Of a stretch of 64,000 bases of DNA, positions 11,982 to 46,690 are shown one piece after another. The position numbers and the translations under genes were made by a program. Numbering within the stretch: position 1 is the first letter of the stretch; every line of letters begins with the position of its first letter. The stretch lies in the IMG/VR virus record IMGVR_UViG_3300022223_000001, positions 1 to 64,000 of that record; one strand, 5' to 3'. Origin of the DNA: a virus. The notes under the pieces are model-generated. The model saw nothing but the letters and a program-made list of their open reading frames with translations. It had not been told where the DNA came from and did no database searches.

Positions 11982-13217
11982 CTAGCGCACCAGCAGCCCC
12001 AGTTGCACCGGCCCGTCGCCGCCATCCTCCCCAGGCCCGGCCTTCCCGGCGCGCTCGAGCGCCTTGGCGATGCGCGCCCGGGCCAGCTCGGCGTAGGTCT
12101 TGCTGATCTCGATGCCTACGAAGTCTCGGTCGTGGTGCACGGCCACGGCCCCGGTCGTCCCGCTGCCGGTGAAGGGGTCGAGAACGGTGCAGGGGACCGG
12201 CTCGCCGGCGTCGCAGCTGCATGTCGGGTCCCAGCCGGCCGTGCGCCGGACCCTCGAGACGTGGCCGTGGCTACCCTTCACCGCGAAGCTGTGGGGGTTG
12301 CCCAGCGAGGCCTTCGAGTACTCGCTGGGCTCGCGCCCGGCGGTGCGCTCGTTGAAGCTGAGCCCCTCGATGACGACGCGCCGGCGCCGTGGCGCTCCGC
12401 AGGCCGCACAGCACCCGGCCTCGGACGTCCCCGCCAGGATGCACGGCCGCGCCAGGTCCTCGGGGAACGTGGCGTAGTGGCCGCCGCGGTAGGGCTGCGT
12501 CGGGATCGTCCACACCGTGCGCTTGTTGCGGTGGGTGACCAGCTCGCGCACGGCGCGGCCGAAGCTCTCGTTCTGGCGCACTCGATCGTGGGGCGTCTTG
12601 CCGGGCGGCTGGGCCTTGCCGCCGACGCCTCCCCCGCGGGTGTGCGCGCCGCCGGTGACCGGCTCTCGGATCGCATCGGCGTCGTAGAAGTAGGTCGGCG
12701 ACGGCGCGAGCAGGAACAGGTGCTCGTGGCTCTTGGTCGGGCGGTCCTCGACTGCCTCGGGCATGCAGTTCGGCTTGGCCCAGATGATCTCCGATCGCAG
12801 CACCCAGCCATCGGCCTGCAGCGCGAATGCCAGGCGCCACGGCATTCCGATCATGTCCTTGCGCTGGAAGCCCGCGGGCGGTCCGCTCCAGCCGTTCAGC
12901 TTCGACTTGCCCTTCCAGCTGGCGTCCCCGCGCTCCTGCATGAAGCTGCCGCCGCCGCCGTTGCCGCCGGCCGCGTAGGTGTCCCCCATGTTGAGCCAGA
13001 GCGTCCCGTCGGGGCGGAGCACGCGGCGCACCTCGCGGAACACCTCGACCATCGCATGGAGGAAGGCCTCGGGCGTCTCCTCGATGCCGAGCTGGCCGTC
13101 GACGCCGTAGTCGCGCAGGCACCAGTAGGGCGGGGAGGTCACGCAGGTGTGCGCGGAGGCGGCTGGCATCTCCCGCAGCCGCTCCCGGCAGTCGCCCACG
13201 AGGACCTGGTGGGTCAC
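11982..13217 (-). CDS. Beta-class DNA methyltransferase (N4-C or N6-A)
   Basis: 411 aa. I choose the GTG at 13217, which overlaps the previous stop (GTGA); another GTG lies 9 nt upstream. The catalytic motif IV is TSPPYW near residue 35; the AdoMet motif I is DPFTGSGTT near the C-terminus, so the order is that of beta-class enzymes. TSPPYW favours N4-cytosine but N6-adenine enzymes share it. The region between holds Cys pairs (CCAACG, CSCD) and a variable target-recognition part. Last of a chain of genes joined by 4-nt overlaps. Confidence 0.85.
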   Translation of the reverse strand: MTHQVLVGDCRERLREMPAASAHTCVTSPPYWCLRDYGVDGQLGIEETPEAFLHAMVEVFREVRRVLRPDGTLWLNMGDTYAAGGNGGGGSFMQERGDASWKGKSKLNGWSGPPAGFQRKDMIGMPWRLAFALQADGWVLRSEIIWAKPNCMPEAVEDRPTKSHEHLFLLAPSPTYFYDADAIREPVTGGAHTRGGGVGGKAQPPGKTPHDRVRQNESFGRAVRELVTHRNKRTVWTIPTQPYRGGHYATFPEDLARPCILAGTSEAGCCAACGAPRRRRVVIEGLSFNERTAGREPSEYSKASLGNPHSFAVKGSHGHVSRVRRTAGWDPTCSCDAGEPVPCTVLDPFTGSGTTGAVAVHHDRDFVGIEISKTYAELARARIAKALERAGKAGPGEDGGDGPVQLGLLVR

Positions 13218-13414
13218 GGCGTCCACCTGCCCCGGCTGCCCCACTTCAGGACGATGTAGCGGATTTGCTCCCCGGTGGCATTCCGTCCGAGGTCGCGCAG
13301 CTGCAGGGCCATTGGCCGCCTCGGTGGCTTTGGTGGCTGCCAGCGCGGCGCCAGCGCGTAGACCAGCAGGCCGGCGCCGGTGATGGCGAGGGCGGCGAGC
13401 AGGGCGGCGGTCAC
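13214..13414 (-). CDS. Small single-pass membrane protein
   Basis: 66 aa, GTG start overlapping the previous stop, and its own stop overlapping the methyltransferase start (GTGA both times). One N-terminal membrane helix (TAALLAALAITGAGLLVYALA) is followed by a Pro-rich turn and a basic C-terminal tail (ALQLRDLGRNATGEQIRYIVLKWG). Unknown role. Confidence 0.5.
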   Translation of the reverse strand: MTAALLAALAITGAGLLVYALAPRWQPPKPPRRPMALQLRDLGRNATGEQIRYIVLKWGSRGRWTP

Positions 13415-13782
13415 GGGCGGCCTCCCGGCCGGTCCGGTACCACCTCGACCGACCCGTCTCTGTAGTGATAGAGCGCGACGCCGTCGGGCATGTAGCGGTT
13501 GGTGCGCATCTCGATGTCGCCGCGTAGGTGTGCCAGTCCAGGCGTGGCAGCGGGGCCGGCGACGACCGCGATCGGGCCCTTCCACTGCCGCCGCGTGATT
13601 GCCACCGGGCGGCGCATGCGTCGCAGTATTGCCTCGATATCCTTCCGTATGCTCTCGCAGCTGCCGCAGCGCTCGGGAGGGTCGAAGTCACAGGGCGCGT
13701 AGCCGAGCCGCGAGACCTTGCAGACATCCCGCACAGCCTGGTCGAGCACGGCGCGGGCGTCGTCGGTGAGGTTGAGGGTCAC
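13411..13782 (-). CDS. Hypothetical protein in methyltransferase-nuclease-helicase cluster
   Basis: 123 aa, GTG in a GTGA overlap with DUF1643. N-terminal helix (TDDARAVLDQAVRDVCKVSRL), a CDF-x6-CGSC Cys group, then a beta-rich C-terminus (PDGVALYHYRDGSVEVVPDR). The Cys may bind a metal. Family not recognised. Confidence 0.55.
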   Translation of the reverse strand: MTLNLTDDARAVLDQAVRDVCKVSRLGYAPCDFDPPERCGSCESIRKDIEAILRRMRRPVAITRRQWKGPIAVVAGPAATPGLAHLRGDIEMRTNRYMPDGVALYHYRDGSVEVVPDRPGGRP

Positions 13783-16091: not shown

Positions 16092-16490
16092 TCATGTGGT
16101 CTCCAGGGTGACGACGTGCAGCGGCTTGCCGCCGAGCTCGTCGGGTAGGGTGGCGTGCCGCGCCACGATGGTGGCCAGCACCAGAGACTCGACGCGCTCG
16201 GACGCGGCGTAGCGGCTGAGCTGGCGCAGCACGGCGGTCGGCGGGCCGGCCAGCTTCACCTCGATGCCCACGCCGCCGACCAGGAAGTCGATGCGGTCGC
16301 CCGGCGCCAGGGAGACCTCGCGCTCGAAGTCGATGCCGTCGCGGCGCAGGGCCTCGGCGATGGCCTCCTGCAACTCGGCCTCGTCGTGGCAGAGGAAGCG
16401 GTAGCAGGTGAGGGTGCCCAGCACGGCAGTTGTCGCGCGGCTGTTCGATGCGGCGGGGCCGCCGGGTAACAGGTGTCGAACGGGGGTCAT
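16092..16490 (-). CDS. PD-(D/E)XK nuclease-like protein (VRR-NUC type)
   Basis: 132 aa, ATG in an ATGA overlap with the C5 methyltransferase. The core is EAELQEAIAEALRRDGI, FEREVSL, then DRIDFLVGGVGIEVKL and LRQLSRYA. The D-x(n)-E-V-K motif with preceding Glu is a PD-(D/E)XK nuclease centre; the fold resembles Holliday junction/VRR-NUC enzymes. Pairing with the SNF2 helicase is a common phage arrangement. Pairing with a C5 methyltransferase also allows a restriction role. Confidence 0.72.
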   Translation of the reverse strand: MTPVRHLLPGGPAASNSRATTAVLGTLTCYRFLCHDEAELQEAIAEALRRDGIDFEREVSLAPGDRIDFLVGGVGIEVKLAGPPTAVLRQLSRYAASERVESLVLATIVARHATLPDELGGKPLHVVTLETT

Positions 16491-17602
16491 GGGGAATCCC
16501 CCGGGATAGCCGCCATGATGGCCCGGCCGATCACCTCCGCGACCTGGGGAACTACGGCGTTTCCGAGGGCTCTGAGTCTGTGTGCCCGATCGGGAATCCC
16601 ATGAGCCACTCGACAAACCGCGGGTTGAGCGTCAGCTTGCACTCGCCCCCATGCGTGCAGGTCGTCGGGAGCGGGCGGCCACTGCGGCAGGTCGCGTCGG
16701 TCAACGTCGTGCCGCCCTCCGATCGCGGCCGACCCGTCGACTTGGAGATCGGGCCGTAGCCCCTCGCCCCGCTCGAGTTCGCGTCGCCGGCGGTCGCTGT
16801 TGGCCACATCGCTGACACCGCGTCCTCGAGATTCCGGCGCCCGGCGCCCAGCCGAATCTGCGCCATCGATGCCGAAGGGAACCCGCGCTTCGGATCGCCC
16901 AGTCGCGCCTTGGGCGTTGGCCACGTCCGGGCGACCGATGACAGCGGCTCGCCGCCCTGCGCGTTCCGCCCCTTCGTTGGCCCCCGCGCGTCCCTCGACA
17001 ACGGCGTCGGCCATGCTCGGGCCCAGCTGAACAGGCTCGGCGTTCCAGCCGTCGGCCTCTTGTGGGACACCTGCCCCTCGTTCTGGCTGCTCCCGTACTC
17101 CGTCGCGCTCGGGGTCGGATACTCGCCACGCGACCACGAAGAGCCGGTCACGGCGGTGAGGGGCGCCAACGGCTGCAGCCGGTAGACCGTCCCAGACAGC
17201 ATCATACCCGAGCGTGGCCAGGTCACCGAGGACGCGGTCGAGTCCTCGAGTAACGAGAGCTGGGACGTTCTCCACGACGACGCAGCGTGGTCGAAGTGCG
17301 CCAACGATTCGCGCGTACTCCGACCAGAGACCAGAGCGCGGATCTGCGAGGCCCAGCCCCTTTCCAGCGACGCTGACGCCCTGGCAGGGGAATCCTCCAC
17401 AGATGAGCCCGGGCCGTTCGGCCCGCTCGTCGACTTGCCGGACATCGTCGTACCTCGTTGCGTTCGGCCAGTGCTCCGCGAGCACCCGCTGACAAAATGG
17501 ATCGCTCTCGGCCTGCCAGAGCACCGGGCCAAGGCCAGCGCGCTCCAGACCCAGCTCGAGCCCGCCGATGCCGCTGAACAGGCTGCCGATCGCGAGGGTC
17601 AC
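16487..17602 (-). CDS. C5-cytosine DNA methyltransferase
   Basis: 371 aa, GTG in a GTGA overlap with the integrase. Motifs: I LFSGIGGLELGLERAG, IV GGFPCQGVS (catalytic Cys), VI VVENVPAL, VIII HRRDRLFVVA, X RLRALGNAVVPQVAE. The stretch between VIII and X is low in fold character, with repeated VADA/VANA words. In that stretch another frame carries the stronger coding signature (see the overlapping entry). It probably protects phage DNA from host restriction or pairs with the adjacent nuclease. Confidence 0.88.
   Translation of the reverse strand: MTLAIGSLFSGIGGLELGLERAGLGPVLWQAESDPFCQRVLAEHWPNATRYDDVRQVDERAERPGLICGGFPCQGVSVAGKGLGLADPRSGLWSEYARIVGALRPRCVVVENVPALVTRGLDRVLGDLATLGYDAVWDGLPAAAVGAPHRRDRLFVVAWRVSDPERDGVREQPERGAGVPQEADGWNAEPVQLGPSMADAVVEGRAGANEGAERAGRRAAVIGRPDVANAQGATGRSEARVPFGIDGADSAGRRAPESRGRGVSDVANSDRRRRELERGEGLRPDLQVDGSAAIGGRHDVDRRDLPQWPPAPDDLHAWGRVQADAQPAVCRVAHGIPDRAHRLRALGNAVVPQVAEVIGRAIMAAIPGDSP
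16552..17532 (-). CDS. Overlapping reading frame inside the C5-methyltransferase gene (WPTP-repeat protein)
   Basis: 326-codon open frame, or 297 codons from the ATG at 17445, nested in the methyltransferase gene in another frame. It reads as protein: SSWRTSQLSLLE, TWPRSGM, then repeated WPTP words and a C-terminal LNPRFVEWLMGFPIG. I know this sequence type from other phage methyltransferase loci. In a hand count of 100 codons (about 16711-17010), 86 end in G/C in this frame against 71 in the methyltransferase frame. Real dual coding is possible; a shadow of the conserved gene is the alternative. Confidence 0.4.
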   Translation of the reverse strand: MARCSGRPRAIHFVSGCSRSTGRTQRGTTMSGKSTSGPNGPGSSVEDSPARASASLERGWASQIRALVSGRSTRESLAHFDHAASSWRTSQLSLLEDSTASSVTWPRSGMMLSGTVYRLQPLAPLTAVTGSSWSRGEYPTPSATEYGSSQNEGQVSHKRPTAGTPSLFSWARAWPTPLSRDARGPTKGRNAQGGEPLSSVARTWPTPKARLGDPKRGFPSASMAQIRLGAGRRNLEDAVSAMWPTATAGDANSSGARGYGPISKSTGRPRSEGGTTLTDATCRSGRPLPTTCTHGGECKLTLNPRFVEWLMGFPIGHTDSEPSETP

Positions 17603-19179
17603 GCCGCGCCCTCCCGTGCCCCGCGCTCGGTCGCCGGCGCGCGCCCAAGCTCGTGGCGAACGATGGCTTCGAGCAGCCGCACCGTCAGCGAGTGGACTTC
17701 CGCTTCGGGCGCCTCGACCAGTCGGCCGGCCAGCAGCACGGGCTCGCTGAGCAGCACCGCCTTGCTGATCAGGTCGGCGTCCTCGCGCGTGAATTTCTCC
17801 CTCTGCGCGCACCGCTCGAGCAGCTCTTGTGCTACGACCAGCAGTGAACCTGTCCGCGACCTGTCCGCGCCCCCGTAACTACCCGGAATTACAAGGTTGG
17901 CTTTCCCCTCCGGAGCCAAAGGTCGGGCGTTCGAATCGCCCACCGCCTGCCCAATGATTTCAAGTAGTTGCGCCACTTGAGGATCGACAGCGCGGACAGG
18001 TTGCAGACATGTCCGCGCTGCCCGATTGCTCAGCGCGCGCGGGTCCAGGTGGGCGTAACGCTCGGTTACCGCCTCGTGGCTGTGGCCGAGGAACTTGGCG
18101 ACGTCGGTCAGCGGCCAGGGATCGCCCCAGTAGCCGCTGACCAGGGCGCTGGCGCAGGTGTGGCGCAGGTCGTGGAAGCGCACCCGGCGGCGCAGCCCGA
18201 CGCGGTAGCGCCAGCCCAGCAGCGTCAGCCCGCGGGCGCGGTCGGTCTGCGGCGCCCAGCCCCAGTCGTAGCCGCGAGCGTGGTGTCCTGGCTTGGCTCC
18301 CTTGCGCCGCGGGCGGCTGGGCCAGACAGGGCCGGCCTTCGGGCGCCCCTGGCCCTCCCACCAGGCGAGTAGGGCGGCCTGGCCCATCGGGGTGAGCGGC
18401 ACGTCGCGCCTCGAGGTCTTCGTCTTCGTCTCGCCGTCCCAGCTGGCCAGCACGTCGATGCCCGGCCTGGGCCCGGTCAGCCGCACCCTCTCCCACGAGA
18501 GCGCGGCGAGTTCGCCCTGGCGCAGGCCCTGGTAGATGGCGACGGCGAAGGCCGAGCGCGCCTTCGCGGACAGGTCGGGGTGCTCGAGAACCTGTCCGAT
18601 CTCCTCGATCGTGAGGAAGGTCCAGGGCTCCGGCGTCGCGACGAAGGTGTCCGGCAGCGACACGTCGGCCGCGGGGTTTGTGGGGATCAGCCCGTCCTCC
18701 ACCGCCTCCTGCAGGCACAGCCGCAGCCTGCCGAGGGCGTGCTTGGCCGTGTCGCGGCTGATCGGGGTGCCGCGCTCGGAGATGTGCTCGGGTAGGGCGC
18801 GCGCCCAGTCCCGGACGTCGGGCATCGTGATCGCGTCGAGCGGCCAGTCGGCGAACTCGGCGGCGCAGACCGTGGTGCGCCAGACCGAGCGCCATGGCCC
18901 GATGTTCCGGCCGCCGGCCTTCTCGACCCACCGCTCGCCGTAGGCCCGGAGCGACGACGCGGCGCCGCGGAACTGGGTCTCGCGCCGGGCTTCGACCAGG
19001 GCGTTCAGCGCAGCGTGGGCCGCGTCCTCAGCCCGGACGGTGCCGACGTTGTGCATCCCGCCGGCGCCGTCCGGGAAGCGCGCCCGGAAGCGCCATGCGC
19101 CTCCCTGCCAGACGGGGGTGACGGTGCCGGTGCCGCGCGGGCGGCGGGTGACGGTGGGCTTGGGTGGGCGGTGGCTCAT
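17599..19179 (-). CDS. int: Tyrosine recombinase integrase with attP inside its frame
   Basis: 526 aa. Catalytic residues are visible: Arg in GLRQGELAAL (about 222), HDLRHT (about 336), GHS, and the Tyr nucleophile in ERYAHLDP (about 375). The N-terminus has an arm-binding-like WQGGAWRFRARFPDG segment. The frame runs about 150 residues past Tyr. Codons for residues about 408-424 are the antisense of a tRNA 3' half (the attP core), so integration should replace the last ~100 residues. ATGA overlap upstream, GTGA downstream. Confidence 0.92.
   Translation of the reverse strand: MSHRPPKPTVTRRPRGTGTVTPVWQGGAWRFRARFPDGAGGMHNVGTVRAEDAAHAALNALVEARRETQFRGAASSLRAYGERWVEKAGGRNIGPWRSVWRTTVCAAEFADWPLDAITMPDVRDWARALPEHISERGTPISRDTAKHALGRLRLCLQEAVEDGLIPTNPAADVSLPDTFVATPEPWTFLTIEEIGQVLEHPDLSAKARSAFAVAIYQGLRQGELAALSWERVRLTGPRPGIDVLASWDGETKTKTSRRDVPLTPMGQAALLAWWEGQGRPKAGPVWPSRPRRKGAKPGHHARGYDWGWAPQTDRARGLTLLGWRYRVGLRRRVRFHDLRHTCASALVSGYWGDPWPLTDVAKFLGHSHEAVTERYAHLDPRALSNRAARTCLQPVRAVDPQVAQLLEIIGQAVGDSNARPLAPEGKANLVIPGSYGGADRSRTGSLLVVAQELLERCAQREKFTREDADLISKAVLLSEPVLLAGRLVEAPEAEVHSLTVRLLEAIVRHELGRAPATERGAREGAA
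17907..17954 (+). other. attP: Putative attP core: 3' half of a tRNA-Arg(CCG)
   Basis: The segment reads like a tRNA from the anticodon loop (CTCCGGA, anticodon CCG) through a variable loop, the T arm (stem GGGCG, loop TTCGAAT, stem CGCCC) and a 3' acceptor strand ACCGCCTG. The 5' half of a tRNA is absent. Such fragments are the phage half of tRNA attachment sites. Phage genes lie on both sides, so this is attP rather than attL or attR. Confidence 0.75.
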
Positions 19180-19391
19180 CGGTTCCTCAGCATCCGGAGT
19201 AGCCGCTTGGCCCGGGCGACGTCCAGGTCGGAGGGCGGCGGGCCGGGCGGCGCCGGCGGGTCGTAGACGCCAGCTCGCCGGCGGGCGCGGCGCTCCTTGC
19301 GGTCGCGCTCACGGGCCGTCAGGACGTTCAGCTGGCGCTGCAGGTCCTGCAGGATCGCCAGGGCGTCGCCGTCTTCGGCCGGGTCGCTCAC
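19176..19391 (-). CDS. Small charged protein upstream of int
   Basis: 71 aa, ATGA overlaps with both neighbours. N-terminal coiled-coil-like helix (ALAILQDLQRQLNVLTARERDRKERRARRRAG), Pro-rich middle, basic C-terminal helix (ARAKRLLRMLRNR). It lies where excisionases or recombination directionality factors are often found, but no winged-helix motif is seen. Confidence 0.5.
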   Translation of the reverse strand: MSDPAEDGDALAILQDLQRQLNVLTARERDRKERRARRRAGVYDPPAPPGPPPSDLDVARAKRLLRMLRNR

Positions 19392-19789
19392 CCCGAAAAC
19401 CTCCCTACGATCACGTCGTTGTCGCCCAGGATGAGGGTCCGCATCGACAACTCGGCGATCACCATTTGGATGCTGCCGGCCACCAGCGCATCGGCGAACT
19501 CTGCGGCCGGGGTGTCATCGCGCACGAGCCGGTCGAAGCTTTCAACGATGACGACGGCCGGTCCGTTCTCTGCCGCTCGGCGCAATAGAGCGTCGAAGCC
19601 AGGGCGCGCACGGCGCCCGAGCCAGCCCGGGATAGCGCGGTCCTCGAACACCTCCGCCAGCGGGTACCCGCGCTCCTCTGCGAAGCTGCGGATGTGCTTC
19701 ACCTGGCGGTCGACGCTGAGCGGCTGCTTGGCCGTGCTGGACCGTGCGTAGCCCAGGAAGATCCGGGCGCCTGCCGTCGGGTCAGCCAC
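19388..19789 (-). CDS. Small serine recombinase (resolvase catalytic domain only)
   Basis: 133 aa, GTG start. YARSSTAKQPLSVDRQ gives the catalytic Ser and first Arg; RPGFDALLRR and ESFDRLVRD supply the other conserved Arg positions of the resolvase/invertase fold. The C-terminal HTH domain of typical resolvases is missing; the protein ends soon after the catalytic domain. It sits two genes upstream of int. It may be a degenerate invertase, a multimer-resolution enzyme lacking its DNA-binding part, or a partner of another DNA-binding protein. Confidence 0.78.
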   Translation of the reverse strand: MADPTAGARIFLGYARSSTAKQPLSVDRQVKHIRSFAEERGYPLAEVFEDRAIPGWLGRRARPGFDALLRRAAENGPAVVIVESFDRLVRDDTPAAEFADALVAGSIQMVIAELSMRTLILGDNDVIVGRFSG

Positions 19790-45418: not shown

Positions 45419-46690
45419 ATGAAGATCGGAGACTACGAGGTGCACGATGCTGCGAGGCTGTTCCCGTTGATGGTCGGGGCGGAGTTCGAGGCGCTGTGCG
45501 ACAACCTGCGCGATCAAGGCCTGCTTGAGGACATCGTGCTGGTGAAGACCGGCAAGTCCGAGAAGCTGCTCGACGGCCGCAACCGGCTGCGCGCGTGCGA
45601 GGCGACGGGCATCGAGCCGCGCTTCACCCACTTCGAAGGCAAGGACCCCGTGGCCTACGTGGTGAGCCACAACCTACACCGAAGACACCTCGACGCATCG
45701 CAGCGCGCGATGGTCGCGGCGCGCATCAAGCCGCTGTTCGAGGCCGAGGCCGCGCAGCGCTTGCGCGAGGGCGGCGCCCGTGGCGGAAAGGCGTCCGGTT
45801 CGGCGCCCGGCAAGAATAAGCCTGTGGAAACATTGCCACAGGCTTCCGAGCGTCGCCCTCCAGCGCGCGACCAGGCGGCCCGCCTCGTCAACGTGAGCGG
45901 GCGCACCGTGCAGAAGGCGCAGAAGGTGATCGAGTACGGCTCCAAGGAACTGGCGGCCGCCGTCGACGCTGGCGTCGTCAACGTCGAGCTGGCCGCCCAG
46001 ATCGCCGACAAGCCGAAGGACGAGCAGAAGGAACTCGTGCGCAAGATCGCCGAGAGCCCGGGCAAGAACGCGCGTGCTGTGCTCCGGTCCCACGACCGCG
46101 ACACGGTCGTCGAGCAGATCGAAGCCGAGGCCGTCGAGATGCCCGAGGGCCCCTTCCGCGTGATCCTTGTCGACTTCCCCTGGGCCTACGCCAAGCGCGC
46201 CGGCGACGGCACCCAGCGCGGACAGACACTGTATCCCACGATGCAGCACGACGAGATCGTCGAGTTTGCGCGCGACAAGCTCGCCCCGCTGGCGCACGAG
46301 GACGCGGTGCTGTTTCTCTGCATCACCAACGCGCACCTGGTCCGAGGCGACCACGTCGCAGTGCTCGAGGCCTCCGGCTTCACCGGCAAGACGATGCTCT
46401 CGTGGGACAAGGAGCGCATGGGCACCGGTGACTGGCTGCGCGGGCAGACCGAGCACATCATCATGGCCACGCGCGGCCGCCCGATGGTGAAGCTCACCAA
46501 CCAGAGCACCGTGCTGCCGATGATCTCGGAGAAGCGGCGCGAGCACAGCCGCAAGCCCGAGTCGCTCTACGGCTTCATCGAGGAGCTGTGCCCCGGCAAC
46601 CGGGTGGAGCTGTTCTCGCGCACCGACCGCCCCGGCTGGACCGCGTGGGGCGCCGAGGCTGGGAGCTTCGAGGCGGAGCTGGGGTTGTGA
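45419..46690 (+). CDS. ParB domain - MT-A70 methyltransferase fusion
   Basis: 423 aa. N-terminal ParB-type part: EFEALCDNLRDQGLLEDIVLV, LLDGRNRLRACEATG, HNLHRRHLDASQRAMVA; HTH-like QAARLVNVSGRTVQKAQKV (about 155). From residue ~240, an MT-A70 domain: RVILVDFPWAYAKRA (motif IV, DFPW instead of the usual DPPW), PTMQHDEIVEF, FLCITNAHL, GTGDWLRGQTEHIIMATRG, SRKPESLYGFIEEL. It should methylate adenine N6, targeted by the ParB/HTH half. A phage-type combination. Confidence 0.85.
   Translation: MKIGDYEVHDAARLFPLMVGAEFEALCDNLRDQGLLEDIVLVKTGKSEKLLDGRNRLRACEATGIEPRFTHFEGKDPVAYVVSHNLHRRHLDASQRAMVAARIKPLFEAEAAQRLREGGARGGKASGSAPGKNKPVETLPQASERRPPARDQAARLVNVSGRTVQKAQKVIEYGSKELAAAVDAGVVNVELAAQIADKPKDEQKELVRKIAESPGKNARAVLRSHDRDTVVEQIEAEAVEMPEGPFRVILVDFPWAYAKRAGDGTQRGQTLYPTMQHDEIVEFARDKLAPLAHEDAVLFLCITNAHLVRGDHVAVLEASGFTGKTMLSWDKERMGTGDWLRGQTEHIIMATRGRPMVKLTNQSTVLPMISEKRREHSRKPESLYGFIEELCPGNRVELFSRTDRPGWTAWGAEAGSFEAELGL

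Follow-up and report, generated by a model that had tools for sequence, protein, structure and literature searches.

Temperate phages need an integrase that inserts their genome on entry into the host without undoing or repeating the reaction, and the usual answer to this need is a separate excisionase. In the integration-dependent immunity of mycobacteriophages attP lies within a coding gene, and integration alters the product of that gene, which is the repressor and not int. Several other systems carry the attachment site within the integrase gene itself. In the Myxococcus phage Mx8, attP lies inside int and integration replaces the 112 C-terminal residues of the protein by 13 (PMC4701971, PMC6070905), the prophage product being less active than Int (PMC4701971); Mx8 is mentioned together with SSV in a further paper (PMC4383910). 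The SSV-type (“suicidal”) archaeal integrases likewise have attP inside a gene that is changed by integration, and the cut parts the N-terminal portion from the catalytic domain, leaving inactive pieces (PMC8371274). In streptococcal integrative and conjugative elements (ICEs) located in rumA, an att site within the integrase gene alters the C-terminus of the protein on integration (PMC4701971). Ordinary tyrosine integrases that target tRNA genes, such as those of mycobacteriophages, use cores of 43-44 bp (PMC10865867).

Here we analyze a tyrosine integrase gene in the window, i.e., the whole 64,000-nucleotide stretch studied from a 68,804-bp virus record. Its organization is of the Mx8 type, with attP placed by sequence wholly within the int open reading frame (ORF), past the codon for the catalytic tyrosine. 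Like Mx8 Int/IntX, it is a tyrosine integrase of a myxobacterial phage with attP in the int coding sequence and a catalytic part that is kept. A sequence-only reading of the window had noted that phages with attP in a repressor or int gene exist, and Mx8 Int/IntX provides such a parallel (PMC6070905, PMC4701971). The two integrases are nevertheless unlike in sequence: Mx8 Int has only weak similarity to the window Int (24% over 205 residues, E 0.001), which falls short of a common lineage, and the Mx8 tail scores 0.1 bits against the tail profile described below, under its best shuffle at 9.7, which falls short of homology. Mx8 therefore shares neither the integrase subfamily nor the tail. In contrast to the SSV type, the core found here follows Tyr375 and the catalytic part stays whole; in contrast to the rumA ICEs, which use serine integrases and a target other than a tRNA gene, this system combines a tyrosine integrase with a tRNA gene. 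With ordinary tRNA-targeting integrases it shares an attP core made of a tRNA 3' half, and the arm-type sites that flank the core in those systems have putative counterparts here; in those systems, however, attP lies outside int, so that phage and prophage Int are identical. The principle is thus already known from Mx8 Int/IntX. What is new is the recurrence of this layout in a second and separate integrase subfamily, the many tRNA genes targeted within one class and a conserved, removable domain; unlike in Mx8, the tail domain found in the window is common to many elements at many tRNA genes. No earlier description was found in the literature searched, which was limited in extent.

The phage genome and its integrase gene

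The record carries a 127-bp direct repeat at both termini (positions 1-127 and the last 127 bases), which marks it as a complete, non-integrated phage genome with an intact attP. Terminase, portal, capsid and tail-sheath genes are present, and by its tail-sheath gene the phage is contractile-tailed. The int gene and its parts are as follows:

17599..19179, minus strand: int gene, phage form, encoding a tyrosine integrase of 526 aa (Pfam Phage_integrase, 9.7e-16; PHROG 1 integrase, 8.7e-45)
18010..19179, minus strand: N-terminal, core-binding and catalytic parts (residues 1-390), with six invariant catalytic residues; predicted to be retained in the prophage form
17848..18009, minus strand: linker, codons 391-444, of low model confidence, its DNA doubling as attP
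17647..17844, minus strand: C-terminal tail domain, residues 446-511, with four predicted helices (from the profile score and a tail-only model); predicted to be lost from Int on integration
17600..17602, minus strand: likely GTG start of the next gene, a cytosine-C5 methyltransferase, sharing GTGA with the int stop

The Pfam Phage_integrase (PF00589) match spans residues 189-379 and, together with the catalytic residues R-K-H-R-H-Y, identifies Int at the sequence level as a tyrosine recombinase. These residues (R220, K252, H336, R339, H366 and Y375) are invariant across 18 aligned homologues, in agreement with the initial placement of the catalytic tyrosine near position 375. The full-length AlphaFold2 model has a high-confidence fold up to about residue 380, followed by a stretch with pLDDT below 50 (residues 380-444) that coincides with attP. 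A peptide-pattern search of IMG/VR returned no close relatives of the window Int.

The ORF at 16487-17812 matches PF00145 starting at its residue 75, and the start of the methyltransferase gene (16487-17602, minus strand) is probably inside the int stop; integration would carry this gene, together with the displaced tail, to the prophage end opposite int. Two more methyltransferase genes lie at 11982-13727 (minus strand) and 45419-46690 (plus strand), giving three in the phage altogether, the one at 45419-46690 having ParB-like matches toward its N-terminal side. Just upstream of the tyrosine integrase, a 133-aa ORF (19388-19789, minus strand) is nearly all serine-resolvase N-terminal domain (PF00239, 4.9e-17) and is without a DNA-binding part.

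An attachment site within the coding sequence

The attachment site comprises a tRNA-derived core and flanking repeats:

17847..18020, no strand assigned: attP region, entirely within the int ORF, with core and flanking 10-12 bp repeats
17907..17951, plus strand: attP common core of 45 bp, the 3' part of tRNA-Arg(CCG), antisense to int at codons 410-424 (45/45 identity with L004:6606-6681 and L005:5733-5808)
17849..17858, plus strand: putative arm-type Int site, CCTGTCCGCG, exact repeat copy
17860..17869, plus strand: putative arm-type Int site, CCTGTCCGCG, exact repeat copy
17991..18000, minus strand: putative arm-type Int site, CCTGTCCGCG, exact repeat copy
18008..18017, plus strand: putative arm-type Int site, CATGTCCGCG, near-copy of the repeat with one mismatch

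The tRNA-like antisense stretch that had been noticed at about codons 408-424 is real: the core, downstream of Tyr375 and wholly inside the ORF, is identical, over the span from anticodon loop to acceptor, to an intact tRNA-Arg(CCG) gene called by ARAGORN in two Myxococcales MAGs (L004 and L005). A scan of 84,980 species with a 34-base piece hit only two places, both within a tRNA-Arg(CCG) gene; the match between core and tRNA is not due to chance. The exact 45-bp core has no match in IMG/VR, and ARAGORN and Rfam call no tRNA in the window, as expected for half a gene.

Exact copies of CCTGTCCGCG number four in the 64-kb window, three of them within about 150 bp at attP, where two direct copies (17849-17869) lie on one side of the core and an inverted pair (17991-18017, the last with one mismatch) on the other. 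These repeats look like arm-type sites, and the four at attP occupy about 170 bp at codons about 388-444. With core and arm-like repeats both inside the ORF of a complete, non-integrated genome, the proposal that attP lies inside int holds. The presence of arm-like repeats on both sides of the core, and the very low confidence with which residues 380-444 are predicted, would also suit a 3' part of int that is constrained only as DNA, by its arm-type sites and core, and whose protein product is irrelevant. We consider this very unlikely, since the helical domain, which starts past the last of the arm-like repeats, is conserved as protein.

The predicted exchange of the Int C-terminus

Recombination computed with the tRNA gene of either L004 or L005 yields an identical Int of 430 aa, its predicted stop provided by the antisense D-arm of the tRNA and its predicted end being ...DSNARPLAPEANALSS followed by the stop. 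Integration is thus predicted to turn Int from 526 into 430 aa, ending ...QAVGDSNARPLAPE-ANALSS (...APE-ANALSS). The analysis turned up no prophage of this phage itself; the two genomes with the exact tRNA-Arg(CCG), L004 and L005, carry only distant integrases, so that their sites are empty rather than occupied by a prophage.

Integrated relatives at many tRNA genes

A translated search found Int homologues, at no more than 45% identity, in 72 of 318 genomes of one class, most likely Polyangia. Of thirty int loci fetched, 21 had a tRNA gene called no farther than about 700 bases from the int stop; L065, where the call was unclear, was left out of the 21. The int frame enters the tRNA antisense in 19 of these 21 loci, stopping inside it in 15 (at 11 or 25-27 bases from the tRNA 5' end) and reading through in four; in the remaining two (L053 and L063) int stops just before the tRNA. 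The targets called by ARAGORN include tRNA-Arg (CCG, CCT, ACG, TCG, TCT), Gly(CCC), Thr(CGT), Lys(TTT) and Asn(GTT). Two relatives sit in tRNA-Arg(CCG), their int frames ending DSNLWPSAPEADALSS (L067) and DSNQWPWASETHALSS (L058), each followed by a stop within the antisense tRNA, and both ends match the pattern predicted for this phage. Replacement of the C-terminus with the catalytic part kept, predicted for the window, is accordingly observed in the sequences of integrated relatives. The suggestion that integration swaps the Int C-terminus is supported by these frames ending in antisense tRNA, the 430-aa form of the present phage being a prediction. Neither of the outcomes that would have spoken against it, use of a different kind of site or a common C-terminus in integrated copies, was encountered: the integrated relatives use tRNA genes, twice the same tRNA-Arg(CCG), and have no Int C-terminus in common.

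At L033/L034 (G188:C100) and L035/L036 (G227:C37), three core copies lie several kb apart, a pattern that suggests tRNA-Arg(CCG) as a hot spot with tandem arrays of integrated elements.

Where one contig holds both prophage ends, the phage form can be rebuilt by joining int plus core from attL to the sequence that flanks attR on the right. The tail and int of every such pair share a strand, and the tail is located upstream of int, which is what integration predicts. In ten rejoined elements (L041, L051, L057, L067, G310, G238, G285, G317, G142, G227) the int frame is open through the core into a long tail, and in L048 and L055 it is open into a short tail of 46-47 residues. The attL/attR repeats are at least 41 bp in L048, L051, L055, L057, L067, G310, G285, G317 and G227 and shorter in G238 (18 bp), G142 (19 bp) and L041 (24 bp), which makes these last three junctions less certain; the tail of G238 matches the profile weakly (13.4 bits). 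The attL/attR pairs of G317 and G285 are complete and located on large contigs. Most rejoined elements have the core antisense to int, but in G238 and G227 the tRNA has the same orientation as int, and reading the tRNA backwards is therefore no requirement for the split. Upstream of one int, L048 (L070+L107) has attR twice, at a distance of 1.1 kb, with two diverged versions of a short cysteine-rich tail.

Natural attP forms also occur: six IMG/VR contigs (L112, L113, L116, L117, L121, L123) have T-arm and anticodon-loop sequence within the int frame, which stays open for 48-95 residues past the core. In L110, int stops before its core, and the layout is therefore common but not universal; a universal arrangement in the integrase subfamily was rejected on this case and on L053 and L063, where int stops before the tRNA.

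A conserved tail domain

The part of Int that would be removed, about 100 residues, holds a conserved helical domain that stays intact at attR. AlphaFold2 predicts four helices for residues 446-511, with high confidence when the tail is modelled alone and lower confidence in the full-length model. Against a tail profile built without it, the window tail scores 26.0 bits (best of 997 shuffles, 10.9), and pairwise resemblance gives z values of 7.7 (window-L041), 3.4 (window-L113) and 11.7 (L113-L041). A profile from seven tails matches in 56 of the 318 class genomes, and a phylum sample of 379 genomes gave 15 hits, every one already in the class set. Tails of L067, L117, L121, L123, L116 and Mx8 go unmatched by this profile.

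Thirty tail copies were fetched for context. An integrase-profile match lies directly upstream in the same frame in only two (L193 and L194); in the first of these (= L050) integrase and conserved tail share one frame without a recognizable tRNA core between them. An antisense T-arm lies within 220 bases upstream of the tail in 21 of the 30 (3.5% in control stretches), and three further tails are preceded by a sense T-arm (7.4% in controls, either orientation), placing the family behind tRNA fragments in 24 of 30 places. The best interpretation of most of these copies is that they mark the attR ends of integrated elements. The frame is open from antisense T-arm to tail in 20 of the 21, and all three codon phases between T-arm and tail occur, so the open frame is not a single inherited accident.

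These data bear on whether the tail is a protein domain at all. In GC-rich DNA stops are rare, and the int frame might simply run open past an ordinary 3'-flanking attP into a meaningless tail; random frames are indeed long at the G+C of the window, the tail stretch read in another frame meets a single stop, and some relatives have short or unrelated tails. Such a read-through artefact is nonetheless extremely unlikely given that tails are homologous between elements with different tRNAs, that dN/dS is below 1 (0.17-0.58 for related tail pairs; NG86 on short sequences, hence rough), that the frame is kept in all rejoined elements, that a compact fold is predicted and that int and the following gene overlap, stop on start, as GTGA. 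The Int C-terminus is a real domain that is removed by integration, and on sequence grounds most tails, that of the window included, are one unnamed family. Comparison of the tail with Pfam, PHROGs and a phage collection gave no convincing match, and a fold search of PDB and BFVD gave none below E 0.001; a profile hit to 8fre (E 0.00022) extends over 34 residues, and no single stretch in it passes the limit by itself.

A real domain could still be a separate small protein, e.g., a regulator or excisionase, encoded beside attP and sharing the int frame by coincidence. In favor of this reading, one subgroup (L197, L209, L210, L216) has an ATG immediately ahead of the domain, and the tail is intact at attR; in that subgroup a separate tail protein is possible. 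As a general account it is unlikely: where the core was found, a usable start before the domain is missing in the window, L190-L195, L200, L201, L206, L207 and L213, and the frame from core to tail is open in 20 of 21. The stretch from core to tail domain in the window contains neither ATG nor GTG nor TTG. Together with the overlap of the int stop and the methyltransferase start, this makes the tail appear to be translated within Int.

As part of Int, the tail could serve as a stability signal, full-length and prophage Int then differing in half-life rather than in recombination activity, as in the integration-dependent immunity of mycobacteriophages. The -GAA ends of the window Int and L117 bear a loose likeness to C-terminal degrons, but other tails end in HGS, GHG, RPK, TG, AG or RG with no common terminal signal, and the conserved part is a predicted folded domain; we regard this alternative as quite improbable. 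A shared C-terminal degron was rejected, as tail ends vary.

Proposed mechanism

Four things are established at the level of sequence: where the site lies, how the frames read, that integrated relatives show the swap and that the tail domain is conserved. On this basis we propose that attP, just past the codon of the catalytic tyrosine, recombines with the tRNA-Arg(CCG) gene of a Myxococcota host. The crossover would fall inside the shared core, its likeliest place being close to the anticodon loop, and would rebuild the tRNA with a phage-supplied 3' half. The int gene would gain a new end with a stop in the antisense D-arm, shortening the protein from 526 to 430 aa with all catalytic residues kept, and the removed part—a short stretch coding the left arm-like sites and the conserved four-helix domain—would remain at attR. 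By analogy with Mx8 we infer that the tail domain favors the integrating form of Int, e.g., by helping Int to assemble on attP or to capture attB, and that without it the prophage enzyme is quieted or redirected, being weaker or differently biased; excision would then restore the integrating form. Integration and excision could in this way be unequal, as the sequence-only reading suggested. The arrangement of the DNA would in effect record whether the phage has integrated. We hold this explanation as a whole, from recombination at an attP inside int and removal of the tail domain to a tail that favors integration, to be highly probable. For the wider proposal, that the C-terminal domain is a dedicated integration-mode module, shed and regained by myxobacterial elements with each integration and excision as a memory or directionality device that is written in the order of the DNA and reused at many tRNA genes, in either orientation, the chances appear evenly balanced.

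Implications

The phenomenon is wider than the sequence-only reading supposed, and the removal of a conserved domain was unanticipated there. The enzyme described here seems to rewrite its own gene while acting. Mx8 was previously a single curiosity; the same layout across a class, with a detachable domain at many tRNA genes, suggests a general strategy. A displaced tail beside a tRNA fragment offers a marker for mapping prophage ends, and the arrangement carries a warning: for integrases of this type, the form annotated in a prophage is not the one that carried out the integration.
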